Assembly: GCF_900156465.1 (NCBI RefSeq)
Contig: NZ_LT707064.1
Location: 5,285,001 to 5,349,000 of the forward strand
Source of the DNA: Pseudomonas sp. 7SR1
GTDB lineage: Bacteria; Pseudomonadota; Gammaproteobacteria; Pseudomonadales; Pseudomonadaceae
Reading direction: 5' to 3'
DNA: 64,000 nt
Each line of letters opens with the position of its first letter. Position 1 is the first letter of the stretch. Below the pieces are notes generated by a model. The model saw nothing but the letters and a program-made list of their open reading frames with translations. It made no database searches and was not told the origin of the DNA. The translations under genes were made by a program, and so were the position numbers. This document shows positions 4,438-18,495 of the stretch, one piece after another.

Positions 4438-5619
4438 CTAGAAAAAAGTGATCTCGGATGAAGGGCTGCTCACCACAGGCTTACCGTGATGGATCGCGTG
4501 TTGTTCAGGCATCGTGTAGGTGCTTGCCAATTGCTCGAGCCAGCTCTCGGCGATGATCGGGGCAGGTGTTCCGCCGGCAAGGGCCAGTTGCTGGCGTTCG
4601 GCGATATGCGCATGCAGTTTGCAAAGATCGTTGTTGACCAAAGAAAGCATCTGGCCGACCCGGTCCTGGAACTGCAGGGCGACCAGTACCCCCGATATCT
4701 CGGTCGCAACGTTTTCGCTTTGCTGCTGAAGACTGCTGCTGGTATCGACAATGGCCTGGGCGTTATGCCGAAAGTGCTCGATCACCTGGGACACCAGTTG
4801 CTCGGAGTGAGCCAGGGTGTGTGAATCCTGCTGCGCCTGATGCCGGGAAAGCTCGACGGTGCGAGAGATCGCAGCGTTGACGGTGTTCACCGTTTCACTG
4901 ATTTTCTGCCCCGTCTCGCCGGATAGACTCGACAGTTTGCGCACTTCATCGGCCACCACCGCGAAGCCACGTCCGGCATCCCCCGCCCGCGCCGCTTCAA
5001 TGGCGGCGTTGAGCGCCAGCAGATTGGTCTGCTGGGCAATATCCCCGACGAACTTGGCCATTTCCTGCAACTGCGAGGTGAAGTCAGAAAGGAGCAAGAC
5101 CTCCTTGAGTTCCGACTCCTTGCGCAAAAGCGCGTCACGCAGGGCAACCATGATCGAATCCAGGTCCCGCTGACCGACTTCAAGGATATCCAGCAGACGT
5201 GCGCCCGAATTCTGGCCTGCGCCCTGGGACGCGGAAGCACTGATCTCCCCCGACAGCGTCGCGAAGCGGTGACTGAGCTTGAGGATCGACTCCTCGCTGA
5301 GGATGCGCGCCGCATCGATCTGGTGGCTCCAGATCGGCAGCACCTGCGCACAGACCTCACCCAATCCTTCATCGGGTGAAACGGCCAGCGGAAGGTGACC
5401 TGGCAGATCGCCTTGCTGGGCGTGCAAACGGGTACTCACTAAGCGCTTGTTCCACATGCCCATGAACAGCGAGCCCAGCAGGACAAAAGCGCAACTGACT
5501 GCGCTTGCAGGGGTGAGGTCCGCGCTGATCAGTATCGCGGCGCAACCGAGCGCTGCCGTCAAACCCGCAGGCAGCATCAAGATCAGGGGGGAAGAATCTA
5601 CCTGTCCTTTCACCTTCAT
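4438..5619 (-). CDS. Short membrane methyl-accepting chemotaxis protein
   Basis: Receptor-like signalling protein of 393 residues. Two closely spaced hydrophobic segments (about residues 11-55) leave almost no periplasmic domain, so sensing must be membrane-proximal or cytoplasmic. The conserved hairpin tip [21 protein letters not shown] and [14 protein letters not shown] are present near residues 190-230. It ends in EITFF, a hydrophobic tail resembling the short C-terminal tether motifs of some receptors. First gene of the chemosensory operon. ATG at 5617-5619 directly abuts GGAGAG; the in-frame GTG two codons later has better spacing and is a possible true start. Confidence 0.88.
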
Positions 5620-5730
5620 CTCTCCAGTTCAGTGCGGATCCGGCGGGATCCGGCGCAAGAACATCCAGCCTTGGGATGCCCGGTTCTGTTGGCCTGAAGA
5701 GATGATGGCCAAGTAATAGCAATGAAACTA

Positions 5731-5788
5731 TCGGAGCATCCTGATTTACCACTAAGGATTGCGGTTGCGCCGTAGGAGAATTCCTACG
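5731..5788 (-). promoter_or_regulatory. Conserved upstream block with CGTAGGA palindrome, chemosensory operon
   Basis: The palindrome CGTAGGAGAATTCCTACG (5771-5788) has perfect 7-bp arms and a 4-bp centre. On the minus strand it is followed by a conserved tail ending in GCTCCGATA (5731-5740 region). A near copy precedes the HD-GYP gene at 7249-7307. The palindrome resembles RcsB-type boxes bound by NarL/FixJ-family regulators; that assignment is inference. Confidence 0.6.
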
Positions 5789-5857
5789 CGCCCCGGACAC
5801 TCCGGAAGAAAAAAACCAGCGACAAGCGCTGGCAAGGAAACCCAGGTTCGTACCGCG

Positions 5858-7111
5858 TTAGCCAAAGCGCGTCTCGCGGCCTTGCACCTTGGCGCCCCAG
5901 AGCGCTTCGAGGTTCTTCAAACCCCAGGTTTTCTCCGACTCGAAGCTGACTATCCTGTCCTGCCCACAGGCCAGATCAATGCATTCGGGCGGCAGCGGTG
6001 TGCGACTCGACGCCGAGAAGAAAACCTTCACCATGGGCGTGAGCAAACATTCGTGATGCTGTTCCATGACCACCGCCAACCTGTCGCTTTGGAGTCGTAC
6101 CAACGCGCCCACCGGATAGATACCAATGCATTTGACGAAGGCGTGAAACACTTTCTGATCGAAGTGCCCTGTCCATCCGGCCATTTTCCGAATCGATTCA
6201 GCGGGGCACCAGCGATCTCGATAAGGTCGGTCAGACGTCACGGCATCATACACATCACAGACGGCTGCCATGCGCGCGAACAGGCTGATCTGGGTTCCGC
6301 ATAATTTATGGGGGTAGCCGCTGCCGTCCACTTTCTCATGGTGATGCAGACAAACGTCCAGCACCCGGTCAGTGAAGTACCTACTTTGCCCCAGCATCCT
6401 GGCTCCAGCCTCAGGGTGGGTGCGCATCGTCGTGTGTTCGTTGTCATTCAAAGGAAGTGGCTTGGCCAGGATGGCCGCAGGTATCGCCATTTTGCCCACG
6501 TCATGCAGCAAGCCAGCCAGACCGGCCTCTTCTACCAGGAGCGGCGGTAGATCCAACTGGCGTGCCAGACCAATCATCAACCCGCAGACGGCTACGGAAT
6601 GCATGTAGGTATATTCGTCGGCAGTTTTGAGGCGCACCAGACTGAGCAGTGCGTCAGGATGGCGTAACAGGGACTCGGATATCTCACCCACCATGTCCGT
6701 GACACGATCCAACTGAACGATCCGCCCCATCCGTAGCTCGCCGAACATCTCCATGACCGCGGCCTTGGAGCTGGAACAAAGTTCGGCCGCCCTTGACAAC
6801 TCTTCGCTCATTGCCGCCCTCGGACGTGGGCAGACGGCTTGTGCGCAAGATCGGTCCGACGCACATGAGGGCTGCTGTCCGCCTTGCCCCGCTTGCGCAT
6901 TGGTTTCAGCACACGCAGAAACCTGTACGTCCACCCCCTTGGACAGGTCGATCCATGCCCCAACGATGCCCGGAACAAGGATCTTTTCCAGTACCTCTTC
7001 ATTCTGGATGAGAAAGCTATTGTTCCAGAACGGACGCTCCATACAGGAACCGGTTAGCTCCTGGACAAACATTCCTACGCAAAGATCGGCCACACCGATA
7101 TGTTTCAGCAC
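5858..7111 (-). CDS. HD-GYP domain c-di-GMP phosphodiesterase
   Basis: Degrades cyclic di-GMP. The 417-residue protein starts with a DUF3391-type N-terminal domain (MLKHIGVADLCVGMFVQEL), then a variable linker, then an HD-GYP domain at about residues 165-330. That domain has HSVAVCGLM, the metal-binding HDVGK, and HHHEKVDGSGYP, so the signature residues are intact. No membrane helix is seen. It lies upstream of the chemosensory operon on the same strand, with a separate promoter region (238 bp gap) but the same upstream palindrome block, suggesting joint control of chemosensing and c-di-GMP turnover. Confidence 0.93.
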   Translation of the reverse strand: MLKHIGVADLCVGMFVQELTGSCMERPFWNNSFLIQNEEVLEKILVPGIVGAWIDLSKGVDVQVSACAETNAQAGQGGQQPSCASDRSCAQAVCPRPRAAMSEELSRAAELCSSSKAAVMEMFGELRMGRIVQLDRVTDMVGEISESLLRHPDALLSLVRLKTADEYTYMHSVAVCGLMIGLARQLDLPPLLVEEAGLAGLLHDVGKMAIPAAILAKPLPLNDNEHTTMRTHPEAGARMLGQSRYFTDRVLDVCLHHHEKVDGSGYPHKLCGTQISLFARMAAVCDVYDAVTSDRPYRDRWCPAESIRKMAGWTGHFDQKVFHAFVKCIGIYPVGALVRLQSDRLAVVMEQHHECLLTPMVKVFFSASSRTPLPPECIDLACGQDRIVSFESEKTWGLKNLEALWGAKVQGRETRFG

Positions 7112-7307: not shown

Positions 7308-7542
7308 ATAGTTTCGAAGTACTGCTGGGGAGGGCCCCTCTCAAATTGCGCGCTGAAAAGAGACCGAAGTCAGGTTTCATTAGACCACTACACTTGTCAC
7401 CTGCCCGCGTTACGCGGACAGATGCACTAATCGCGTTTTGAGTCGGCCTTGACGCCAGCGCCCTCCCACATGAGTTACTTGAACAGAATCTGCAACGCTG
7501 GGAAAACGAAAACGAGCCAAAGTCCCGTCCATGGCAACCGGC

Positions 7543-8145
7543 TTAGATCGCCAGCCCGGCGATGCGACCCTCGACCAGTTGCAGATAATTGCCCAACATA
7601 TCCAGCCCTTGCTGCGTCATCACTGACTCGGGGTGAAACTGCAGACCATAGATCGGCAGCTCACGATGTCGCAGCGCCATGATTTCGCCAGGCTGGCCGT
7701 TTTCATCCAGCGCATGGGCCGTAGCCACCAGTTCGCCGGGCAAAGCGCCGGCCACGAGCGAGTGATACCGCGCCACTTCCAGACAGTCAGGCAAACCGTC
7801 GAACAAGTCACGGCTGTCGTGACGGATGCGCGACACCTTGCCGTGCAGCACCTCTCGCGCCCTGCGTACCTCTCCGCCAAACGCAGCAGTGATGCATTGA
7901 TGGCCCAGGCAGATACCCAGTATCGGCAAGCGGCCCGCAAAGTGTTTGATGGCGGCCAGCGAAATACCCGCCTCGGCAGGCGAACACGGCCCCGGCGAGA
8001 CAATCAGCGACTGCGGTTGCAGTGCTTCCATTTCTGCCAGGGTGATCTGATCGTTGCGCCGCACCTCGACATCGGCACCGAGCATGCCCAGGTACTGCAC
8101 GATGTTGTAGGTGAACGAATCGTAGTTATCGATCATTAAGTGCAT
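7543..8145 (-). CDS. Anthranilate synthase / aminodeoxychorismate synthase component II (glutamine amidotransferase)
   Basis: Releases ammonia from glutamine for the partner chorismate-amidating subunit. The 200-residue class I amidotransferase starts MHLMIDNYDSFTYNIVQYL; the catalytic Cys is in ILGICLGHQCI and the His-x-Glu in GLQFHPESV. The start at 8143-8145 is chosen because AGGAGG lies 6 bp upstream and the family begins with this IDNYDSFTYN strand. It overlaps the end of the component I gene by 20 bp, so translation is probably coupled. This is probably an extra copy serving a specialised pathway, since it sits in an accessory operon with no trp or folate neighbours. Confidence 0.9.
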   Translation of the reverse strand: MHLMIDNYDSFTYNIVQYLGMLGADVEVRRNDQITLAEMEALQPQSLIVSPGPCSPAEAGISLAAIKHFAGRLPILGICLGHQCITAAFGGEVRRAREVLHGKVSRIRHDSRDLFDGLPDCLEVARYHSLVAGALPGELVATAHALDENGQPGEIMALRHRELPIYGLQFHPESVMTQQGLDMLGNYLQLVEGRIAGLAI

Positions 8146-9649
8146 AGGCCACCTCCTGACGTTGGGCCAGTGTTTGGCAGCGGCCCGCCGCAACCCGCAT
8201 CAACTGGCTTTTCTCGATGGTTTCCTGCCACTCGCGTTCGGCGACTGAATCCTGCACAACGCCGGCGCCGGCTTGCACATAAAGTCGCGCATCCTTGAGC
8301 AGCCCGGTGCGAATGGTGATCGCCAGATCGGCGCGACCGTTCCAGTCCAGATAACCGATGGCACCGCCGTATACCCCGCGTGCATGCGGCTCAAGTTCGG
8401 CGATGATCTCAAGCGCACGCACCTTCGATGCGCCGCTGAGCGTGCCGGCCGGGAAAATGCTTTTGAACAGTTCCAGACCACTGACGTCGTCGGCTATCTG
8501 GCCGGTGACCGTCGAGACGATGTGCATGACGTGGGAGAAGTATTCCACTTTGAGCAACTGGCTTACCTGCACACTGCCTGTATTGGCCAACCGCCCGAGG
8601 TCGTTTCGCGACAGATCGACCAGCATCATGTGTTCGGCGATCTCCTTGGGATCGGCAAGCAGCTCTTCTCTGAGACGGTTGTCCTCGGCCACCACGCTGC
8701 CTCGCCGCCGAGTGCCGGCCATGGGCCGCGTCGTCACCGTTTGCTCCTGCTGGCGGAACAGCATTTCCGGAGAAGCGCCAACCACCTGGCAATCCCCCAG
8801 ATTCAACAAGTACCGGTACGGTGTTTGCCCCAGATCCGACAGGGAGCGATACAGCGCCACGGCATCCTCCTCGAAAGGCAGGCTCATGCGCTGGGACAAT
8901 ACCACCTGCATTACATCGCCTGCGGCAATGTAGTCCTTGATCCGCGCCACCGCTTCGATGAACGCAGGTTGCGGGAAGGCAGATTCGGCGGCGGGAACAG
9001 TCACCTCGGCCACATGCGCGCAAGGTGCCGGTGCTACCAACAGGGGCCGCACATTGGCAACCAGACGATTGAGCCGATCCATGCCACTCTGATAGTCGCC
9101 CAACGTTTTCGAGCTTTCATGCACGATGCACCAGGCCAGCCGTTCGCGGTGGTCGAACACCACTACATCGGTGCTGATCAGTTGCAAGACGTCAGGGAGA
9201 TGAAAACCGGAAGGCTTGCGGGGTACACGGCGCAGGCGTGGCTCAATCAGCCGGGTCGTTTCGAACCCGAAGTAGCCGAACAGCCCACCGCTGAACGGTG
9301 GCAGGCCGGGACAATCCGGTACGCGAAAGTGCTTTTGCAGCCGGGCCAGTTCCGCCAGTGGATCTTCGCAGTCAATCCGCGTCGACAATTGGTCGTTGCA
9401 GTAACGGCGCACGACACCTTCATCCAGTTCAATACGCTCATTGCACGGCAAGCCGATCACTGAATACGCCTGCTCGAACACACCGTCGTGCCAGTGCCCG
9501 GTTTCGAACAGATAATCCTGCCCGCAATTGGCTAGCGCCTGGTACAGCGAAAGCGCTTCGACGCCGACCGGCAACGGCAGGCTTTGCCACAGCGGTATAT
9601 AGGTGTACCCGGCTTCACCGAACGCAAAAAAATCTTCCAGACTCAACAT
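8126..9649 (-). CDS. Anthranilate synthase component I-like chorismate-amidating enzyme
   Basis: A 507-residue member of the chorismate-utilising family. The C-terminal catalytic block is complete: GDVMQVVLSQR, RPMAGTRRRG, HMMLVDLSRNDLGR, VRALEIIAELEPHARGVYGG and LYVQAGAGVV. The alanine in PMAGT matches anthranilate synthase; aminodeoxychorismate synthases carry Lys there (PIKGT). The N-terminal Trp-binding motif, normally LLES, reads LFET, suggesting weak or absent feedback inhibition. AGGAGA lies upstream of ATG. It is paired with the amidotransferase downstream. Role: likely supplies anthranilate, or an amino-deoxy-chorismate relative, to the surrounding cluster. Confidence 0.88.
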   Translation of the reverse strand: MLSLEDFFAFGEAGYTYIPLWQSLPLPVGVEALSLYQALANCGQDYLFETGHWHDGVFEQAYSVIGLPCNERIELDEGVVRRYCNDQLSTRIDCEDPLAELARLQKHFRVPDCPGLPPFSGGLFGYFGFETTRLIEPRLRRVPRKPSGFHLPDVLQLISTDVVVFDHRERLAWCIVHESSKTLGDYQSGMDRLNRLVANVRPLLVAPAPCAHVAEVTVPAAESAFPQPAFIEAVARIKDYIAAGDVMQVVLSQRMSLPFEEDAVALYRSLSDLGQTPYRYLLNLGDCQVVGASPEMLFRQQEQTVTTRPMAGTRRRGSVVAEDNRLREELLADPKEIAEHMMLVDLSRNDLGRLANTGSVQVSQLLKVEYFSHVMHIVSTVTGQIADDVSGLELFKSIFPAGTLSGASKVRALEIIAELEPHARGVYGGAIGYLDWNGRADLAITIRTGLLKDARLYVQAGAGVVQDSVAEREWQETIEKSQLMRVAAGRCQTLAQRQEVAYALNDR

Positions 9650-9678
9650 CCCTGTGTCTCCTGAGCATCACCCGGCGC

Positions 9679-10296
9679 TTATTTGAGCGGGGTAGCAGCA
9701 AACGCCGGAAGTTTCTCGATCTGTTCGGAATACGCAGCGAGCGCGGCATATTTTTCGACATCGACCAGATGCGGCACACGAAACTGCGTGAAACGCCAGG
9801 CGGCGGCTACCGTCACGTCAGCTTGGGATATCTGTTCCGTTGCCAGCCAGTGAGCATCGCGTTTGTTCGCTGCTGCTTGGTCCAGAAGTTCCAGCGCGGC
9901 ACTCAGTTGTTCGGTAATACGGGTTTGCCAGGGTTCATAGTGAAACGCCTTCGGCTTGTTGTATTCATATTCGAGCGTCACCGCTTTCTCACACACGGCC
10001 AGGCCTAGTCCGATGAGCGACAGCACCTTGCGATACTGTTTCGGGTCTTTTGGCAGCAAACTGAGTTCCGGGCCGACCAGCGACTCCAGATAATCAATCA
10101 CCATCGAAGAGTCCGTGATCATTTCACCGTCATCGAGAATCAACGTCGGTGCCTTGATGACGGGATTGATGGCGCGAAACTCTTCAGTGTCGCGAAATAC
10201 CGAGATCTGCTTGTGTTCATGGCTCAAGTCCATCAGGCGCATCGAAATGGCCACGCGCCGAACATAAGGGGATCCCATCATGCCAACCAGTTTCAT
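9679..10296 (-). CDS. Glutathione S-transferase family protein
   Basis: A 205-residue protein. It has an N-terminal thioredoxin-like domain (MKLVGMMGSPYVRRVAISMRL; the cis-Pro region VIKAPTLIL; DSSMVIDYLE) and an all-helical C-terminal domain, the usual GST layout and length. The position after SPYVRR is where many bacterial GSTs keep Ser/Cys for glutathione activation. AGGAGA precedes the ATG. Within the operon it could conjugate or isomerise a reactive aromatic intermediate, or protect the host; this is inference. Confidence 0.85.
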   Translation of the reverse strand: MKLVGMMGSPYVRRVAISMRLMDLSHEHKQISVFRDTEEFRAINPVIKAPTLILDDGEMITDSSMVIDYLESLVGPELSLLPKDPKQYRKVLSLIGLGLAVCEKAVTLEYEYNKPKAFHYEPWQTRITEQLSAALELLDQAAANKRDAHWLATEQISQADVTVAAAWRFTQFRVPHLVDVEKYAALAAYSEQIEKLPAFAATPLK

Positions 10297-10327
10297 ATCT
10301 TTCTCCTGAGTTGTTAGAACTTACCTG

Positions 10328-11122
10328 TCAGATTTTCGAGAACTCGACCCTTGCTCCGTAGAACAAAGAGGCGCGCTCTGAAACTGTTTCAACATCGCCT
10401 GTAGTAAGGAACGAGTTGCTACCGGGTTTAGCGCTGGAAAAACGCGGATTGCTTTGCAGATACTCCGTCAGATTTTCAGCGCACGCACGGGACTGGGACA
10501 GAATCCGCACCGAGCCCGGCAACTCTGCCCGCCACAGTGGCTCAACGAGGGCGTAATGGGTGCAGCCCAATATGCAAATCTGTGGAACTTGCGGGGTACT
10601 CACCAAGAGCGCATCGACGTGTTTACGTATTTCGACCCGCAACCGCTCTGTCGGCGCGTCTTGCTCAATCAGCAAGGCGAGACCGTTACAGACTTGTTGA
10701 TACACCGCTGTAGCTGGATTCCGTTTGTTAATTTCCGTGGCAAAAATATTGGAGTCCACCGTATGCTGAGTGGCAAAAACCGCCACACTCTCGACAGCGG
10801 CATCTGCCGCCTCTTCGGCTACCGGTGTGACGACTCCAATCACCTCTCGATCCGGATAAAACGCTGGCAGCCATGACTGCTTCAAATTGCGCAGACTGGT
10901 GGCCACGGCGGTATTACAGGCGATCACGACCAATGAACAACCGTATTCGAAAAGCCGGGCAACAGCGGCCAGGGTGAGATCGTAAATATCACCCGATGCG
11001 TTGTTGCCATAAGGCGGGTTGCCATGATCTCCCAGATAGACAAAGTGTTCGTGTGGCAATGCAAACTCAAGAGTACGCATCACCGTCAATCCACCACTGC
11101 CGAAATCAAATACGCCAATCAC
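10328..11122 (-). CDS. Glutamate racemase-like protein with altered active-site motifs
   Basis: Asp/Glu racemase fold of 264 residues, close to normal MurI length. Both catalytic cysteines are present (VVIACNTAVA and CILGCTHYAL). The usual FDSGxGG reads FDFGSGG, and the usual GDTARxPYG reads GDHGNPPYG, so the substrate pocket differs from housekeeping MurI. The GTG start at 11120-11122 is chosen because GAGG precedes it and the protein then begins VIGVFD as in the family; the frame is open further upstream, into lysE, but that part is not homologous. Acts on glutamate or a related amino acid; the exact substrate is unknown. Confidence 0.78.
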   Translation of the reverse strand: MIGVFDFGSGGLTVMRTLEFALPHEHFVYLGDHGNPPYGNNASGDIYDLTLAAVARLFEYGCSLVVIACNTAVATSLRNLKQSWLPAFYPDREVIGVVTPVAEEAADAAVESVAVFATQHTVDSNIFATEINKRNPATAVYQQVCNGLALLIEQDAPTERLRVEIRKHVDALLVSTPQVPQICILGCTHYALVEPLWRAELPGSVRILSQSRACAENLTEYLQSNPRFSSAKPGSNSFLTTGDVETVSERASLFYGARVEFSKI

Positions 11123-11169
11123 ATCGAACCTCGCTTGAATGCTGGGTAATGCCGGGTACTCACATTTAT

Positions 11170-11772
11170 TTAAATAGTCGTGGCAATTGCAGTGGCGACG
11201 CCGATGTACAAAACGCCCGTCACCACACTCATCTGGCGCTTTGTCTTGAATATCTTCGCTGCGTGCCGGGCCAGGAGCATGTACATGGCGTACACCGATG
11301 TGGAAATGACAATGGCGGTCGCAATCAAGGCGATGCACTGCGGGACATAAGGCAAGTCTTTATTGACGAAGGTCGGGAACAAGATGATGTTCGTCAGAAT
11401 GCCCTTGGGATTGGTAAATGAAACGATCACAGCTCCGGTGAACATTTGTAGCGGCGTGCGCTTGCTGGAAGTGGCCACGGCAACTTGTGTATGCGAGCGC
11501 AACGACTTCAGCGCCAGATAGAGTAAATAGACCACACCGATCCATTTGAGCCAGAACAGGATTCCGGGGTTTTTGCTGACCAGCAAACCCAGCCCCGACA
11601 GCACGATAAGGGCATGTCCCCCGCTCGCCAGGCCGAAACCGATGGCCCCAGGAAATGACTCCTTGAAACCGTGATCCAACGCCTGCGCCATGGAGAACGC
11701 GACATTCGGCCCCGGGAGGATTGCCGCTGAAAGAAAGACCACGCAAAACAAAATCCAGAGCTGAAAATCCAT
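11170..11772 (-). CDS. LysE/RhtB family amino-acid exporter
   Basis: A 200-residue inner-membrane exporter with about six hydrophobic segments. The family N-terminal pattern is present: FCVVFLSAAILPGPNVAF, with PGPN at the usual place, then GFGLASGGHALIVLSGLGLL. GGAGAG lies 8 bp before the ATG at 11770-11772. In an accessory biosynthetic operon such exporters usually remove an amino acid or amino-acid-like product and confer self-resistance, which points to the class of metabolite made here. Confidence 0.9.
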   Translation of the reverse strand: MDFQLWILFCVVFLSAAILPGPNVAFSMAQALDHGFKESFPGAIGFGLASGGHALIVLSGLGLLVSKNPGILFWLKWIGVVYLLYLALKSLRSHTQVAVATSSKRTPLQMFTGAVIVSFTNPKGILTNIILFPTFVNKDLPYVPQCIALIATAIVISTSVYAMYMLLARHAAKIFKTKRQMSVVTGVLYIGVATAIATTI

Positions 11773-11844
11773 GTTGCACTCTCTCCGTGAGATCACCCTG
11801 ACTGAAGGCGTTCGTCGGGGTCTTGATGCCCGTTTATCGGTGGA

Positions 11845-12558
11845 TCAGACGGGGGTCCCTATCCACTTCGGCAGAAACGCCTTGATCCACGCTTCAACCG
11901 CTGAGTCATGCCGATGCCAGCCCGCGGTATGTTCGTGGGCTGGCTTGGAACCCGGGGCCTTGAGCCGTTCGGTGCCAAGGGACGACCAGCGATCGATCGT
12001 TTCGTAAGTGACTTCCGGGTGAAATTGCAGCGCGTAGGCGTTGTCGGCATAGCGGTAGGCCTGAACCGGAAAAGTCGTCCCCGCCGCCAGTTGCACGGCG
12101 CCCGTCGGCAAGTCGAAGCCTTCGCTATGCCACTGATAGACATGATCCGGAAAAGGAGCGCTGGCATCGGCGGTGATTTCGTGCGCCGCGGCGAGCGGAG
12201 TGATCGGGTAATAACCGGCTTCGATGCCGCCGTTGTCCAGGCCGTAGACCCGCGACCCCAAGTGGCGGGTCAGCATCTGCGCCCCCAGACAAAGCCCAAG
12301 AAACGGTTTGTCTTCTTTCAGGGGATGGGCCAGCCAGTCGATCTCTTCGCGGATGTAGGCATCGCTGTCATTGGCACTCATGGGACCGCCGAAAACCACC
12401 GCCCCGGCGTGTTCGCGCATGTCCTGCGGAAGCGGCTCGCCGAATCGCGGCTTGCGGATGTCAAGCTCGAATCCCAGTTGCTCCAACAGCTGGCCGACGC
12501 GGCCCGCCGTAGAATGTTCCTGATGCAAGATGATCAGGATCTTCCTTGATTGATCCAT
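11845..12558 (-). CDS. Class I glutamine amidotransferase-like protein
   Basis: A 237-residue GMP-synthase-type amidotransferase domain standing alone. The Cys nucleophile is in FLGLCLGAQML and the His/Glu pair in ALQFHPEVTYE. The start at 12556-12558 (MDQSRKILIILHQE) is the first in-frame ATG that leaves the family N-terminus. No synthetase domain is attached. Stand-alone members act as hydrolases of gamma-glutamyl compounds or as amidotransferase subunits. Together with a racemase-like protein this hints at glutamyl chemistry in the pathway, which remains inference. Confidence 0.85.
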   Translation of the reverse strand: MDQSRKILIILHQEHSTAGRVGQLLEQLGFELDIRKPRFGEPLPQDMREHAGAVVFGGPMSANDSDAYIREEIDWLAHPLKEDKPFLGLCLGAQMLTRHLGSRVYGLDNGGIEAGYYPITPLAAAHEITADASAPFPDHVYQWHSEGFDLPTGAVQLAAGTTFPVQAYRYADNAYALQFHPEVTYETIDRWSSLGTERLKAPGSKPAHEHTAGWHRHDSAVEAWIKAFLPKWIGTPV

Positions 12559-12614
12559 TGCACAATTCCATGTTGCGAAGGGTAGCCTGGTGGCTGACCG
12601 GTTCAGATCCCAAT

Positions 12615-13793
12615 TCAGATCGACGCTTCGAAAGGAGGACTGCCGACCCACAGTTCTGCGAAATTCTGCGCCGCCGGACCAGGCCCGAGAATGCGATCGA
12701 GTTCGGCCGTCTGAAGTCGCCGATGAAAATCGGCGTTGTGGTCGAAACGATGAAACAACATGACCATCGCGTGGGAAAACTGCACATCCTTCCACACCTG
12801 CTTCAGGGCAATGTCGGAATAGGACAGCAGCAGGTCATCCTTGTCGTGTGCATAAAACCGCTCGAAAGCGCGAGCAAGAATGTTGGCATCGGACACCGCG
12901 AGATTAAGCCCCTTGGCGGCAGACGGCGGCACGATATGTGCGGCATCTCCGGCCAGAAACAGTCTGCCTTTCTGCATCTTTTCGGCAACGAAACTCCTCA
13001 GGTGGACAATGCTCTTCTCGATAACGGCGCCGCCGTTGACTTTCTCGGGTCGGCCTTCGATACGAGCTTGCAAGAGATCCCACATTTGCGCGCCAGACCA
13101 ATTGTCGGCCTGTGCGTCAGGCGAACATTGCAGGTAGATTCTTGAAACGCTGGGCGAGCGCATGGTGAACAACGCGAGCCCGGACTCGTGGCTGGCGAAG
13201 ATGACGTCCCTGGAAATGGGCGACATTTCAGCCAGCACCGCCAGCCAGGCGAACGGATAAGCGTGCGAGAAAAACTTGAGGGAATCAGCGATATATGGGC
13301 GACAAATACCGTGGAAACCGTCACAACCGACGATGAAGTCGCAATCGAGCACCTGTTGTACGCCGTTGAGTTTGAACGTCACTGAAGGTGTATTGGCGTC
13401 GGCATCATGAATCTGCACATCGGCAGCGTCGAATAATAGTGGATAGTCTGTTTTCAACCGCGCAGCAATCAGATCCTTGATGATTTCCTGTTGGCCGTAG
13501 ATGGTGACGGTACGACCGGTGAGTGCTTCAAAATTCAGTTCGCGTGTCGCGCCCTCATAATGAAACTGCAACGTAGAATGCACCATGCCTTCAGACGCAA
13601 TTCTCGAACCGACACCACTCTCAGTCAGAATCTTCACCGTTGCTGGCGTGATCTGACCTGCGCGACTACGGCCTTCTACATACTCTTTGGGACGACTCTC
13701 GACGATGACATTGTCGATACTCATAAGAGAAAGAAGTTGCCCCAACATCAATCCGGCCGGGCCTGCTCCTACGATTGCAACCTTTGTCCGCAT
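12615..13793 (-). CDS. PHBH-type FAD-dependent aromatic monooxygenase
   Basis: A 392-residue class A flavin monooxygenase of the 4-hydroxybenzoate 3-hydroxylase family. The FAD-binding GxGxxG is VAIVGAGPAGLMLG, the NAD(P)H/FAD motif is DFIVGCDGFHG, and the ribityl-binding motif is GRLFLAGDAAHIVPPSAAKGLNLA. Length and layout are full. GAGGGA precedes the ATG. With an anthranilate-synthase-like pair in the same operon, ring hydroxylation of an aminobenzoate is the likely reaction, but a 4-hydroxybenzoate substrate cannot be excluded. Confidence 0.9.
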   Translation of the reverse strand: MRTKVAIVGAGPAGLMLGQLLSLMSIDNVIVESRPKEYVEGRSRAGQITPATVKILTESGVGSRIASEGMVHSTLQFHYEGATRELNFEALTGRTVTIYGQQEIIKDLIAARLKTDYPLLFDAADVQIHDADANTPSVTFKLNGVQQVLDCDFIVGCDGFHGICRPYIADSLKFFSHAYPFAWLAVLAEMSPISRDVIFASHESGLALFTMRSPSVSRIYLQCSPDAQADNWSGAQMWDLLQARIEGRPEKVNGGAVIEKSIVHLRSFVAEKMQKGRLFLAGDAAHIVPPSAAKGLNLAVSDANILARAFERFYAHDKDDLLLSYSDIALKQVWKDVQFSHAMVMLFHRFDHNADFHRRLQTAELDRILGPGPAAQNFAELWVGSPPFEASI

Positions 13794-13889
13794 GGGTTTG
13801 TCCCTCTGTGTAATAAGGTTTAAGACGACTCAGTGACAGTTGTTAGTTTTTTTGATGACTGCCAGTTTGCGCGCAGGCTTTCTTTCTGC

Positions 13890-14273
13890 TCATCTTTTCC
13901 GGGTAATGAGTTCACTCATGTACTGATTCAAGTCACGCAGATCGTTGATGCTCCAGGCGTGCGGAGCAATTTTCACGTTGTTTTCTCGCAAGGTTTTTGG
14001 AATCAGGCTTCCACTCGGGCGAAGAATGACCGATGAAACAATCACACCGGGATAATCATTGAGCCGCTTCTTGAAGGCGGACGTGGTCAGGTCAGGCGTC
14101 GGCGGATTGCTTTTTTTCGCCAACGGCCCTGTTCCTTTGATATCGGCGCCATGGCACACGGCGCATCGCTGTGTATAAAGATTCTTTCCATTGGCATTAT
14201 CCGCATAGGATAACGACGACTGAAAAACAGATAAAAAACCAAGCAGAACAACAGGTAATATCTTCATTTGCAT
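13890..14273 (-). CDS. Small periplasmic c-type cytochrome
   Basis: A 127-residue protein with a cleavable signal peptide (MQMKILPVVLLGFLSVFQSSLSYA) and one haem-binding CAVCH motif at about residues 37-41. A Met in the C-terminal helix (NQYMSEL) could be the distal ligand. The first gene of the eight-gene accessory operon, 96 bp upstream of the monooxygenase. It probably carries electrons for an oxidative step or to the respiratory chain. Codon use in this part of the operon is visibly more AT-rich than in the flanking chromosome. Confidence 0.85.
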   Translation of the reverse strand: MQMKILPVVLLGFLSVFQSSLSYADNANGKNLYTQRCAVCHGADIKGTGPLAKKSNPPTPDLTTSAFKKRLNDYPGVIVSSVILRPSGSLIPKTLRENNVKIAPHAWSINDLRDLNQYMSELITRKR

Positions 14274-14494
14274 TTATTTTATTCAGACGAACAAACCTAT
14301 CCGCTCTTTTCGAAATTCATGAGCGGCGCACAGTTGCTCACGACAAATACATGCCGTGGACAATTAATCAGTTCAGTTTGTTATCAGTTGGAAACGCGCA
14401 GGTCCACACTCGGAATGTGATTGCACCCGGACAGAGCAGAAATTGAAAGTGCGCGAGATTGCCCTGTAAAAAAGGCGCACGCAGGAGAGGATGA

Positions 14495-14566
14495 ATGAAA
14501 GGCCGTGATATGAAACATGTCATTCCCTTGAATTGGTTTACTTATTCCAATGAGTACTATCCTTAG
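14495..14566 (+). CDS. Possible 23-residue peptide ORF divergent from the accessory operon
   Basis: ATG at 14495 follows AGGAGAGG by 4 bp and encodes a peptide ending in NWFTYSNEYYP. It is rich in aromatic residues and divergent from the cytochrome gene. No homologue is recalled and no maturase lies nearby, so it may be chance. The remainder of the gap 14274-14770 contains nothing else I can name. Confidence 0.25.
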   Translation: MKGRDMKHVIPLNWFTYSNEYYP

Positions 14567-14770
14567 TCACGGATGCTAATTTCCCATTTGTTACAAGACA
14601 TGTCAAGATTCAAAAACCACAATTTCATGTTGGTACGCCCTTTTTCTCGCAACCTTATGCAACGACAAGGTTAGTCATTGAACCAGGCGAAAGCCTGGAC
14701 GATACGTCGAAGTACAGCGGTTGGAAAGCTCGCCGCTAGTGAATGTACCTCTCCAGACCAACCCACTGTC

Positions 14771-15324
14771 TCATAACCCCCATCGCCACACAGGCTCGCT
14801 TAAATGCTCGGCAAAAAAGCCCGACAGCGCCTTGATTTTTACCGGCCGGGTGCGGGCCGAGGGGGTGACGAAATACAGGCCGCCACGCGCCATGCTCCAT
14901 TCCGGCAGCACCACGACCAAGCGTCCATCGGCCAGGTATTCGCTGGCTATGAATTCCGGCAGTTCGGCAATGGCCAATCCTTCAAGCAACACTGGCAATA
15001 ACGCATCGGAGTTGGTCACTCTTAACGGGCCGCTGGGCACCACTCTTCTTCGGTGCCGTCTTTATGGGTGAACCGCCACACTTGGCTGCGGGCTCGATAG
15101 GCATAACTCAGGCATGTACGGGTCGCCAGTTCACGGGGGTGGCTGGGGTGGCCGTGGGCAGCTAGATACGCCGGTGAGGCAACCAGGTATTGGGTGACCG
15201 CGCACAGATGCCGCGCAACCAGGGACGAGTCCGGCATTACGGCAATCCGTAGTGCCGCATCGAAGCCCTCGGCGATCAGCTCTACCGAAGCGTCTGAAAG
15301 GTGTAGGTCAATCGACAGCTCGGG
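14771..15324 (-). pseudogene. LysR-type regulator remnant (effector domain only, frameshifted)
   Basis: Two frames together give most of a LysR substrate-binding domain: first frame ELSIDLHLSDASVELIAEGFD, ARHLCAVTQYLVASPAYLAAHG and VWRFTHKDG, then after a frame break near 15035 SGPLRVTNSDALLPVLLEG to FFAEHLSEPVWRWGL. The helix-turn-helix N-terminus is missing. Its place is taken by integrase-derived sequence in the same frame, so this is a deletion junction rather than a functional gene. Confidence 0.85.
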
Positions 15325-15704
15325 ATTCAGAGTGTTCTCACTGATGCGCTTGCTCATGTCGCTTCGATGCGCAAATAAGTAGCGTTGCGCTGGGACAACC
15401 TGGTCGAGTAAGTGACGCACTATTTCCAGGGCCTGAACCGACAGCGGGACAATGTAAGGCGGTACATTTTGGTTCTGCTTACCTGGCTTTCGCATCGCTA
15501 ACTGAAGTTGCTTTACGACCTCCGCTGGTATGACCCATAGCTACCTAGAGACATGCGCTTCTGCACGCCCACCCAGTAGTATCTGAAACGCCAGATTTTC
15601 CCGCCGCGGGCGGTCACGTTGAGCGCAAGCCCATCCGTGTCGCCTATTGTGTAGTCATTGCCAGTGATTCGGGCTTGCCGAACGCTCGTATCCGAGAGTG
15701 CCAT
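15325..15704 (-). pseudogene. Tyrosine-recombinase (P4-type integrase) remnant
   Basis: The upstream piece (15513-15704) encodes 63 residues of an N-terminal arm-binding domain (MALSDTSVRQAR, TDGLALNVTARGGKIWRFRY, MSLGSYG). The second piece (15325-15495) encodes an internal catalytic-domain stretch (YIVPLSVQALEI, FAHRSDMSKRISENTLN). The middle and the catalytic C-terminus are gone. It lies about 235 bp from the 3' end of tRNA-Gly, the position expected for an element integrated at that tRNA. Confidence 0.88.
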
Positions 15705-15871
15705 AGCGAGCTCCTGAACAGAGTCAGGTCCGGATGCTCGTCTCGCTATCCAAGCTGCTCCAGCAAAAAACCGATTCAGTGCCCATCCAAATCCAAGATC
15801 CTCATTCGGGACTTAAATCGGGACTTAAAAGCACTGGATGGAGCTGGATTTCAGTGGTTTCCGCCAGAACG

Positions 15872-15896
15872 AAAAAAGGGCCTTTCGGCCCTTATT
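15872..15896 (-). terminator. Rho-independent terminator after tRNA-Gly
   Basis: On the minus strand AAGGGCC-GAAA-GGCCCTT is followed by TTTT, a short GC stem with a T run, 44 bp past the tRNA 3' end. It probably ends the gacA-uvrC-pgsA-tRNA transcript. The remaining 15705-15939 sequence contains only a tandem GGGACTTAAA pair. Confidence 0.8.
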
Positions 15897-15939
15897 TCAA
15901 TCACTTACAGAATTCAATGGAACTCTGTAGCGCAATATT

Positions 15940-16015
<76 letters not shown>

Positions 16016-16078
16016 GTCTTGGTGTGGCGCATTCTATAGATTCAGATTACGCCGTCAACCCTTTGATTCAAAAAAGTT

Positions 16079-16639
16079 TTATTTCGAGTCCACGTCGGTC
16101 CGCAGATGCGGCCAGGCGGCGCGCAGGTACTGGACCATCGACCACAGGGTCAAGCCCGCGGAAATCAGCAGCAGTGCATAGCCCAGCAACACCCAGAAAC
16201 TGAAATCGGACGGGTTCGCCAGCAGGATCACCAGGGCCAGCATCTGGGCGGCGGTTTTCCATTTTCCGAGGTTCGATACCGCCACCTGGGCGCGGGCGCC
16301 CAGTTCGGCCATCCACTCCCGAAGTGCCGAAACGACGATCTCACGACCGATGATCACCGCCGCCGGCAAGGTCAGCCAGAGGTTGCCGTGTTCCTGCACC
16401 AGCAGCACCAGGGCCACCGCCACCATCAGCTTGTCGGCCACCGGGTCGAGGAAAGCACCGAACGGCGTGCTCTGCTGAAGCCGGCGTGCCAGGTAGCCAT
16501 CCAGCCAGTCGGTGGCGGCGGCGATGGCGAATACCGAGGCGGACGCCACATAACTCCAGTGGTACGGCAAGTAGAACAGCAATATGAAGATCGGAATGAG
16601 CAGGACGCGTAGAACGGTAAGCAGGTTTGGGATATTCAT
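16079..16639 (-). CDS. pgsA: CDP-diacylglycerol-glycerol-3-phosphate 3-phosphatidyltransferase
   Basis: Inner-membrane enzyme making phosphatidylglycerol phosphate, the committed step to phosphatidylglycerol and cardiolipin. The 186-residue protein has the CDP-alcohol phosphotransferase signature in full: [10 protein letters not shown] followed by [10 protein letters not shown] (DG-x2-AR-x8-G-x3-D-x3-D). About four to five hydrophobic helices. The ATG at 16637-16639 ([11 protein letters not shown]) is preferred over a GTG two codons upstream because it matches the family N-terminus. Downstream of uvrC. Confidence 0.95.
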
Positions 16640-16671
16640 CGGCACAACTGGCTGCGAGGTTGACGGGCATT

Positions 16672-18495
16672 CTACTCGCTATGCAGGTTTGCATAAATCG
16701 ACTCAGCGAGCTTTTTACTGATACCGGGTGCTTTGGCTATCTCTTCGATGCTGGCACGAGACAGCTCCTGCAATCCACCGAAATGTTTCAACAGGTCGCG
16801 CCGCCGTGTCGGACCCACCCCTGCCACCCCCTCCAGGGTCGAGGTACGACGGGTCTTGCCACGCCGGGCACGATGACCGGTGATGGCGAAACGGTGGGCC
16901 TCGTCGCGAATCTGCTGGATCAGGTGCAGCGCCGGGGAATCCCCTTTCAGGGTGAACTCGTGGGCCGCATCGTTCAGGTACAGGGTCTCGAAACCGGCCT
17001 TGCGCGTAGCGCCCTTGGCCACGCCCAGCAGGATCAGGTCGGGCACCATGAGTTCATTGAGCACATCGCGGGCCATGGACAGCTGGCCCTTGCCACCATC
17101 CACCAGCAGGATGTCCGGAAGCTTGCCCTCCCCGTCCTTGAGCTTGCCGAAGCGGCGCATCAGCGCCTGGTGCATTGCCGCGTAGTCGTCGCCCGGTGTG
17201 ACGCCCTCGATGTTGTAGCGCCGGTAATCGGACTTGATCGGGCCTTCCGGACCGAACACCACGCAAGACGCCACGGTGGCCTCGCCACTGGAATGGCTGA
17301 TGTCATAGCACTCCAGCCGTTGCGGCGGCTCGTCCAGGTTGAGCACCTCGGCCAGGGCATCGAACCGCGCCGCAACGTGCTGGCGGTTGGCCAGGCGCGC
17401 CCCCAGGGCCTGCTCGGCGTTGGTCACGGCCAGTTGCTGCCAGCGCGCGCGAGTACCGCGCACGCGATGACTGATGGTCAGTTCGCGACCGCGCAGCGTA
17501 TGGATGGCCTCGACCAGGGCCGGGAAATCCTCATGGACCACGTTGACGATCAATTCGCTGGGCAGGTCGCGTTCCGGACTGCTGACGTAATACTGGCCAA
17601 GAAAGGCCGACATGACCTCGGCCACGTCTTCCTCGATACCTACCTGGGGGAAGAAGTTCTTGCTGCCCAGTACCCGGCCGCCCCGCACGCTGATCAGATG
17701 GACGCACGCGCCGCCCGGGTTGATGAACGCAGCGATCACATCGACGTCGCCGCTGCCGCCCTCCATGCTCTGCTGGTCCTGTACACGGCGCAGCAGGCCG
17801 ATCTGGTCCCGCAGTTCGGCGGCCTTTTCAAATTCCAGGTTGATCGCCGCCTCTTCCATCGCCGCCGACAACTCATCGGTCAGCGCATTGCTGCGCCCCT
17901 CCAGGAACATCACCGAGTGGCGCACGTCCTCGGCATAGACCTGGGGCTCCACGAGCCCGACACACGGTGCCTTGCAGCGCTTGATCTGGTATTGCAGGCA
18001 AGGCCGGGTACGGTTCTTGTAATAGCTGTCTTCACACTGGCGGACGAAAAACGTCTTCTGCAACAGGCTCAGGCTTTCACGGATCGCCCCGGCGCTGGGG
18101 TAAGGACCGAAATACCGGCCTTTGGCTTTCTTTGCGCCACGGTGAATGCTCAGCCGCGGAAACGCCCCATCGGACAGAAACACGTAGGGATAGGATTTAT
18201 CGTCCCGCAGCAGAATATTGTAGGGCGGCCGCCATTCCTTGATCAGCGTCTGCTCGAGCAGCAACGCTTCGGTTTCGTTGGCAGTGATGGTGGTTTCGAT
18301 TTGCGCGATGCGCCCCACCAGCGCGGAGGTCTTGGGGGCCAGGCCGGTCTTGCGGAAATAGCTGGCCAGGCGCTTCTTGAGATTCTTGGCCTTGCCGACA
18401 TAAAGCAGGCGCGCATCGCTGTCGAACATGCGGTACACGCCTGGGCGGCCACTGCAGGTAGACAGGAAAGCGCTTGGATCAAACAGGTCGGTCAT
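16672..18495 (-). CDS. uvrC: Excinuclease ABC subunit C
   Basis: Nuclease subunit that makes both incisions in nucleotide excision repair. The 607-residue protein has an N-terminal GIY-YIG domain ([21 protein letters not shown]), the Cys-rich motif ([15 protein letters not shown]), a UVR motif near residue 205, an RNase H-like nuclease domain ([30 protein letters not shown]) and C-terminal helix-hairpin-helix motifs ([20 protein letters not shown]). The ATG lies 3 bp past the gacA stop, the usual translationally coupled arrangement. Confidence 0.98.

Follow-up and report, generated by a model that had tools for sequence, protein, structure and literature searches.

The stretch analysed here, called the window, covers 64,000 nucleotides of Pseudomonas sp. 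7SR1 (bases 5285001-5349000 of a single-contig 6.09 Mb genome) and carries an operon of eight minus-strand genes that runs from position 14273 down to position 7543. In transcriptional order, the genes encode a cytochrome c (cytC), an FAD monooxygenase similar to p-hydroxybenzoate hydroxylase (PHBH), a stand-alone enzyme of the class I glutamine amidotransferase (GATase) fold, a LysE-family exporter, a racemase of the MurI fold, a glutathione S-transferase (GST)-like protein, and extra TrpE- and TrpG-like subunits for the amination of chorismate. These eight genes constitute a conserved, co-inherited and real operon. Our tentative reading, given slightly less than an even chance, is that of a horizontally mobile biosynthetic operon in which anthranilate would be made, hydroxylated, conjugated with glutathione, trimmed, racemised and exported as an amino-acid-like product. 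Among the parts of this scheme, anthranilate supply followed by aminobenzoate hydroxylation is likely, the glutathione branch is doubtful, and the action of the racemase on the adduct is improbable.

Conservation, exchanged synthases and mobility

An earlier note, made from the sequence alone, had described eight same-strand genes separated by short gaps and had named their families, all of which was verified with Pfam and NCBIfam profiles; start codons were refined by orthologue comparison. By subtraction, the gaps from cytC to trpE measure 96, 56, 72, 47, 31 and 29 bases, and trpE and trpG overlap by 20 bases. Further loci were collected via PHBH matches, and the presence of PHBH in them is therefore given by selection. 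The eight loci comprise six from Pseudomonas (the window, P. viridiflava p11.F9, P. fuscovaginae SE-1, P. siliginis SWRI31, G183 and G111), one from Chromobacterium subtsugae PRAA4-1 and one from the Methylobacterium indicum plasmid pVL1_1, with L073 (G373) and L034, which are one stretch, counted once. The search for the eight-gene set advised in the earlier note found the eight genes, in this order and on one strand, in 5/5 of the further Pseudomonas loci examined; in all eight loci examined, the core of six non-synthase genes was co-located. Since the order is kept in Pseudomonas and the core is kept across genera, the operon is more than chance. In C. subtsugae, the LysE, racemase and GST genes are flipped to the opposite strand, while on pVL1_1 the synthase comes first, followed by PHBH, GATase, LysE, cytochrome c (annotated there as "hypothetical protein", 52% identity), racemase and GST.

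The operon is rare. Within the genus, the operon-type racemase was present in 4 of 398 genomes and a close PHBH (>80% identity) in 3 of 199. The Chromobacterium set was found in 1 of 19 genomes of its genus and in 1 of 300 of its order, the seed alone being counted. A scan of the phylum (398 genomes, E 1e-115) returned just the window genome and one PHBH match of 48% (G672), and a search of viral contigs gave no match. Among plasmids, 237 records had PHBH relatives, all below 60% identity, and the top record, from Methylobacterium, is the one examined. Proteins of the operon type are also encoded by Burkholderia ubonensis, by C. violaceum and on a contig of 5,813 bases; the nearest named relatives of the operon proteins are mostly from Pseudomonas. 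The earlier note could not match the set to a known pathway, and no description of it was found in the open-licence literature searched by gene set, chemistry and organism; on the basis of those searches, the operon is apparently undescribed so far.

The TrpE-like subunit (8126-9649, minus strand; Pfam PF00425/PF04715) and the TrpG-like glutaminase subunit (7543-8145, minus strand; PF00117 at 192.5 bits, TIGR00566 at 238.9 over 121.05) are additional to another trpE-like gene at 2182029-2183471 of the genome, whose product is 44% identical to the window TrpE and carries the motifs PIAGTR and LLES in place of PMAGTR and LFET. The alanine of PMAGTR stands where PabB has lysine. The third match in the window genome is PabB-like (39%), and in each of the five other Pseudomonas genomes these three match types recur (43-44% trpE-like, 37-39% pabB-like), the trpE and pabB labels for genes elsewhere resting on identity and length. 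As trpE-like and pabB-like genes thus lie elsewhere in 6/6 Pseudomonas genomes, a tryptophan-pathway copy was rejected, and the extra pair pointed out in the earlier note is not the housekeeping one. A plain extra tryptophan copy, which the presence of a TrpE/TrpG pair would suit, or a set of chance neighbours, with which the order kept in six Pseudomonas loci, the core kept across genera and the differing flanks are at odds, can together be given hardly any credence.

The C. subtsugae locus is devoid of trpE and trpG and instead carries, after the GATase gene, a 640-aa PhzE-related fusion (452 bits), while the Methylobacterium synthase is a 750-aa TrpEG exceeding both curated cut-offs (TIGR01815, 961.1 vs 739.15; NF010081, 1033.1 vs 645). 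The three synthase types are mutually 27-35% identical over their aligned parts. The product of PhzE is 2-amino-2-deoxyisochorismate (ADIC), and that of TrpEG is anthranilate; C2 amination of chorismate is common to the swapped synthases. Because three different synthases are attached to one core, anthranilate would be the simplest common precursor, with ADIC as a possible product of the Chromobacterium version. The swaps represent a natural control that indicates the pathway precursor from genomes alone. They also bear on a catabolic or detoxifying role for the set, directed at an aromatic amine. PHBH and GST families are frequently catabolic, but a chorismate-consuming synthase, in three forms, would be pointless for catabolism and the set has no ring-cleavage gene, so we consider such a role very unlikely. 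A phenazine or tilivalline-like cluster was rejected because the operon is without the partner genes: no isochorismatase and no dihydro-3-hydroxyanthranilate (DHHA) dehydrogenase were present among the operon genes of the eight loci, the rest of the genomes not being searched.

In regard to mobility, flanks were compared using all frames of at least 80 aa within 7 kb (one side of P. fuscovaginae being limited to 1.7 kb), and no flanking gene common to all eight loci was found. Both flanks are alike in G111 and P. viridiflava. The trpG-side flank of P. siliginis matches these two (extracytoplasmic function (ECF) sigma factor, FecR, TonB receptor), and on the cytC side P. siliginis and G183 have a matching frame (75% over 538 aa). 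The flanks of the window, P. fuscovaginae and Chromobacterium gave weak frame matches alone (33-38%), the window frame resembling a methyl-accepting chemotaxis protein (MCP), and those of Methylobacterium gave no shared frame at the cut-off. Since the flanks differ among loci, multiple insertion sites exist. Plasmid pVL1_1 is a MOBP/MPF_I conjugative plasmid, and its copy of the operon is flanked by conjugation genes (those of the traA side and DotG/DotH-type ones). The operon proteins are 63-86% identical to those of Chromobacterium (six shared) and 67-89% to those of G183 (eight), whereas for the second TrpE of the window genome the values are 58% against Chromobacterium and 94% against G183. 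Operon proteins are thus too similar between genera and too divergent within the genus, which points to horizontal transfer, and the operon appears to be horizontally mobile.

The monooxygenase and its predicted substrate

The PHBH-like enzyme (12615-13793, minus strand) is the proposed aminobenzoate (anthranilate) hydroxylase. It belongs to the PRK08243 subfamily (487.7 over 351) and scores below the PobA equivalog TIGR02360 (440.3 vs 538.7 bits). In PobA numbering, the pocket of the window enzyme differs by V47Q, L199V, Y201F, S212T, T294S, G295A and Y385W, while the operon enzymes retain Arg44, His72, Arg214, Tyr222 and Pro293. Phe201 is present in all eight loci, Trp385 in seven (Methylobacterium has Tyr) and Ser294 in seven (P. 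siliginis has Thr). Of the carboxylate clamp, Arg214 and Tyr222 are found in 8/8 loci, with Ser212 changed to Thr. When the best 120 of 7,989 PHBH homologues were compared, Phe201 and Trp385 occurred together in 35/35 scored close homologues (P0002-P0039, 35 of the 38 being scored with P0034, P0036 and P0039 omitted, as was P0041) and neither occurred in any of 78 more distant ones (P0043-P0120). Among PobAs of the genus, 24 of 27 have the normal Tyr201/Tyr385 pocket, the other three being mis-extracted rows that were dropped. Three homologues of about 52% identity (P0043-P0045) have the normal Tyr201/Tyr385, with Gln47, Ser294 and Ala295 in P0043 and P0045, and P0044 is also without His72; these may be intermediate forms that link PobA with the operon enzyme.

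According to excerpts of PMC10770758, Ser212, Arg214 and Tyr222 of PHBH hold the carboxylate, and Tyr201 and Tyr385 activate the phenol. The Tyr201Phe change makes hydroxylation 1000-fold slower, and p-aminobenzoate is hydroxylated by PHBH normally and independently of pH (excerpts of PMC3546652). Ten single substitutions at residues 201 and 294 of the Caulobacter vibrioides PHBH are compared in excerpts of PMC10466732; five of them improve the hydroxylation of 4-aminobenzoate, the best being Y201F by concentration and T294S by percentage. Both changes are native in the operon enzymes (8/8 and 7/8 loci, respectively), which supports an aniline with a carboxylate as the probable substrate.

Proposed later steps and competing explanations

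The GATase-fold enzyme (11845-12558, minus strand) is a proposed gamma-glutamyl hydrolase/peptidase. It has the class I fold and a Cys-His-Glu triad, no synthase partner of its own and no close paralogue elsewhere in the window genome, and its fold group includes gamma-glutamyl peptidase 1 (GGP1). The idea that it serves the chorismate enzyme as a subunit was rejected, since it is retained in Chromobacterium next to a fusion synthase. The GST-like protein (9679-10296, minus strand; Pfam GST_N_3/GST_C_2) has 3lxt as its best solved relative (169.8 bits). LysE (11170-11772, minus strand; PF01810, 93.9 bits) is 69-89% identical to its counterparts in the seven other loci, and cytochrome c (13890-14273, minus strand; Pfam Cytochrom_C, 29.2 bits vs a cut-off of 21.3; a single CXXCH and, on visual inspection, an N-terminal signal peptide) is 52-80% identical to its own and present in 8/8.

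The racemase (10328-11122, minus strand, GTG start), a member of the Asp/Glu racemase family, is an extra copy, as a MurI-like gene lies elsewhere in the window genome (32%). In the fold comparison, glutamate racemases take ranks 1-31, which places it in the MurI fold, and both catalytic cysteines are invariant in 30/30 aligned sequences. Ser11 is replaced by Phe in 21/21 alignable operon-type sequences vs 97 others with Ser, so that the variant noticed earlier turned out to be a distinct group. The nearest named Ser-type relatives are mostly alphaproteobacterial. A racemase match was also obtained in 22 other genomes; 20 of these have the Ser motif, and in two the motif was not found. Four of the 22 were examined (L069-L072) and held none of the other operon genes.

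For every enzymatic step we infer the following order. TrpE/TrpG, or a replacement synthase, would aminate chorismate to anthranilate, which the PHBH-fold enzyme without the phenol-activating tyrosines would hydroxylate to an aminophenol, probably at C3 or C5, because both positions lie meta to the carboxylate held by the clamp and benefit from activation by the amine. The aminophenol would readily be oxidised to a quinone imine, with cytochrome c as a possible acceptor of its electrons, and GST would attach glutathione to the oxidised form. The GATase-fold enzyme could then strip gamma-glutamate, like plant GGP1 in glucosinolate and camalexin synthesis, leaving a cysteine-type adduct that is an amino acid, whose alpha carbon the altered racemase may invert before LysE would export the product. 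The earlier note had suggested making, hydroxylating, conjugating and exporting a compound of amino-aromatic or amino-acid-like type; the swapped synthases and the PHBH pocket support the making and hydroxylating of an amino-aromatic, export would fit LysE, and conjugation is only consistent with the GST and the GATase fold group. More speculatively, and with a rather low probability, this could be a plug-in pathway, in which a constant six-gene core makes a glutathione-derived aminophenol amino acid and was thrice fitted with a different anthranilate synthase while moving between Methylobacterium, Chromobacterium and Pseudomonas, a mercapturate-like logic in bacteria.

Three other outcomes share parts of this evidence. 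The first two steps would be identical if 3- or 5-hydroxyanthranilate were coupled by cytochrome c or air to a phenoxazinone-type pigment or dimer, GST and GATase merely guarding against quinone imines. The constancy of cytochrome c in 8/8 loci suits such a compound, but it leaves no role for the altered racemase and the amino-acid exporter, both equally constant, and we hold it unlikely. Slightly less probable still is an amino-acid antimetabolite that hits glutamate metabolism or the supply of D-glutamate to the cell wall, with the racemase as a resistant MurI copy and LysE as efflux. The two retained cysteines, the extra copy, the full glutamate-racemase fold and the mostly alphaproteobacterial Ser-type relatives speak for it, whereas the consistency of Ser11Phe suggests altered chemistry over simple resistance, and antibiotic activity is not known. 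The least probable of the three is nitrogen chemistry, where the substrate of a DnfC-like GATase would be glutamine or an N-oxy compound of the gamma-glutamyl type, and the product would be an aminobenzoate bearing an N-O or N-N bond-containing group. No N-oxygenase or ATP-dependent partner is found among the operon genes of the eight loci, although in Chromobacterium a gene resembling asparagine synthetase is located 1 kb upstream.

Several points weigh against the glutathione-adduct pathway that we prefer. The window TrpE falls below the curated trpE equivalog cut-off (TIGR00564, 442.9 vs 517.7; the second TrpE of the genome was not scored with this profile), the PhzE-like enzyme may stop at ADIC, and the control for mobility is a single gene, the second TrpE. 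The nearest solved relatives of the GATase by sequence and fold are TM1158, 3m3p, 9xfs and DnfC, not GGP1; the operon has no glycine-removing dipeptidase; and GSTs and LysE proteins occur widely and may serve for protection. The racemase, having the fold of glutamate racemases, may still act on glutamate, and the role that we ascribe to Ser11 of MurI is our assumption, which the literature looked at did not confirm. As for the monooxygenase, Tyr385 is retained in Methylobacterium and Thr294 in P. siliginis, and the clamp serine is Thr. In addition, clade F PHBH, which is without both tyrosines, hydroxylates protocatechuate, a phenol (excerpts of PMC10770758), so tyrosine loss alone is no proof of an amine substrate; flavin reduction of wild-type PHBH is not promoted by p-aminobenzoate (excerpts of PMC3546652); and in the Caulobacter vibrioides enzyme aminobenzoate activity does not require the loss of the Tyr201 hydroxyl (excerpts of PMC10466732). 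If the pathway is real, a textbook enzyme family would gain an anthranilate hydroxylase of the PHBH fold, MurI may have given rise to a racemase of new specificity, and Pseudomonas, Chromobacterium and Methylobacterium would have an undescribed secreted metabolite.

Genomic context and comparison with known systems

The eight operon genes have a GC content of 0.474-0.612, whereas 28 other long open reading frames of the window average 0.634 (sd 0.022); at third codon positions, the corresponding GC values are 0.53-0.73 and 0.788 (sd 0.060). The compositional check named in the earlier note therefore places all eight below the mean GC, the GATase (0.612) by just one sd. The MCP-signalling and HD-domain (DUF3391/HD_5) genes adjoining the operon on the left (4438-7111, minus strand) are also GC-poor (0.596 and 0.573), so that the atypical stretch may extend past the operon. 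A weak terminator-like stem was located by site scan directly 3' of trpG (7510-7530, minus strand); the scanned region holds 5 terminator-like sites vs 8.2 in shuffles, and 2 promoter-like sites vs 4.3. On the other side, a tRNA-Gly(gcc) (15940-16015, minus strand; ARAGORN) has no exact repeat of at least 14 bases elsewhere in the window. The earlier note had placed integrase debris at this tRNA: the tRNA is there, but the debris is not supported by Pfam, which sees only two LysR substrate-domain pieces (profile positions 32-119 and 130-208). These form a broken LysR gene between tRNA and operon (14771-15495, minus strand), whose two parts, 15022-15495 and 14771-15043, overlap; in the first part, the N-terminal 55 residues matched no Pfam family at E 1.

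In 3/6 Pseudomonas loci (G111, P. viridiflava, P. siliginis; L034, L036, L039), genes for an ECF sigma factor, FecR and a TonB receptor lie directly 3' of trpG (13602-17690, plus strand, in L039). The receptor was found in 81 of 149 genus genomes; it is present elsewhere in the window genome (84%) and on a different contig in P. fuscovaginae, with none in G183 or Chromobacterium at the cut-off used. A siderophore link through this fecI-fecR-receptor group was rejected as a part of the operon because the receptor is widespread in genomes without it, and the three loci probably have an insertion site in common. In Chromobacterium, an asparagine-synthase family protein (616 aa, Pfam 319.6 bits; L037, 6589-8439, plus strand) is encoded some 1 kb upstream of the operon, and no match to it was reported in the flanks of other loci.

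Compared with known systems, the operon racemase differs from MurI glutamate racemase by Ser11 to Phe and by its score below the curated cut-off of TIGR00067 (134.4 vs 146.65). The phenazine clusters with PhzE, an ADIC synthase, resemble the Chromobacterium version in the PhzE-like fusion; they differ in that the set here has no further phenazine gene and other hosts use TrpE/TrpG or TrpEG. The tilivalline routes to 3-hydroxyanthranilate (HmoX; AdsX-IcmX-DhbX), as far as excerpts of PMC5875774 describe them, likewise have chorismate amination of their own and a monooxygenase for which hydroxyanthranilate is the proposed product, but HmoX is described as a 4-hydroxyphenylacetate-type monooxygenase, and the operon is without isochorismatase, dehydrogenase and non-ribosomal peptide synthetase. 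The plant glucosinolate and camalexin pathways, in which GST is followed by GGP1/GGP3 (excerpts of PMC6243137), are alike in combining a GST with a class I GATase-fold protein, whereas the operon is bacterial, its proposed substrate is an anthranilate derivative, and it has no C-S lyase gene. Finally, PobA/PHBH, including clade F, is alike in fold, length and Arg214, Tyr222, Pro293 and His72. Clade F also lacks Tyr201 and Tyr385 (excerpts of PMC10770758) and has Val199 in common with the operon enzymes, which in turn carry Phe201/Trp385 vs Trp201/Phe385 in clade F and differ at Gln47, Thr212 and Ala295 as well. Unlike PobA/PHBH, the operon enzyme is encoded beside a synthase expected to yield an aminobenzoate.

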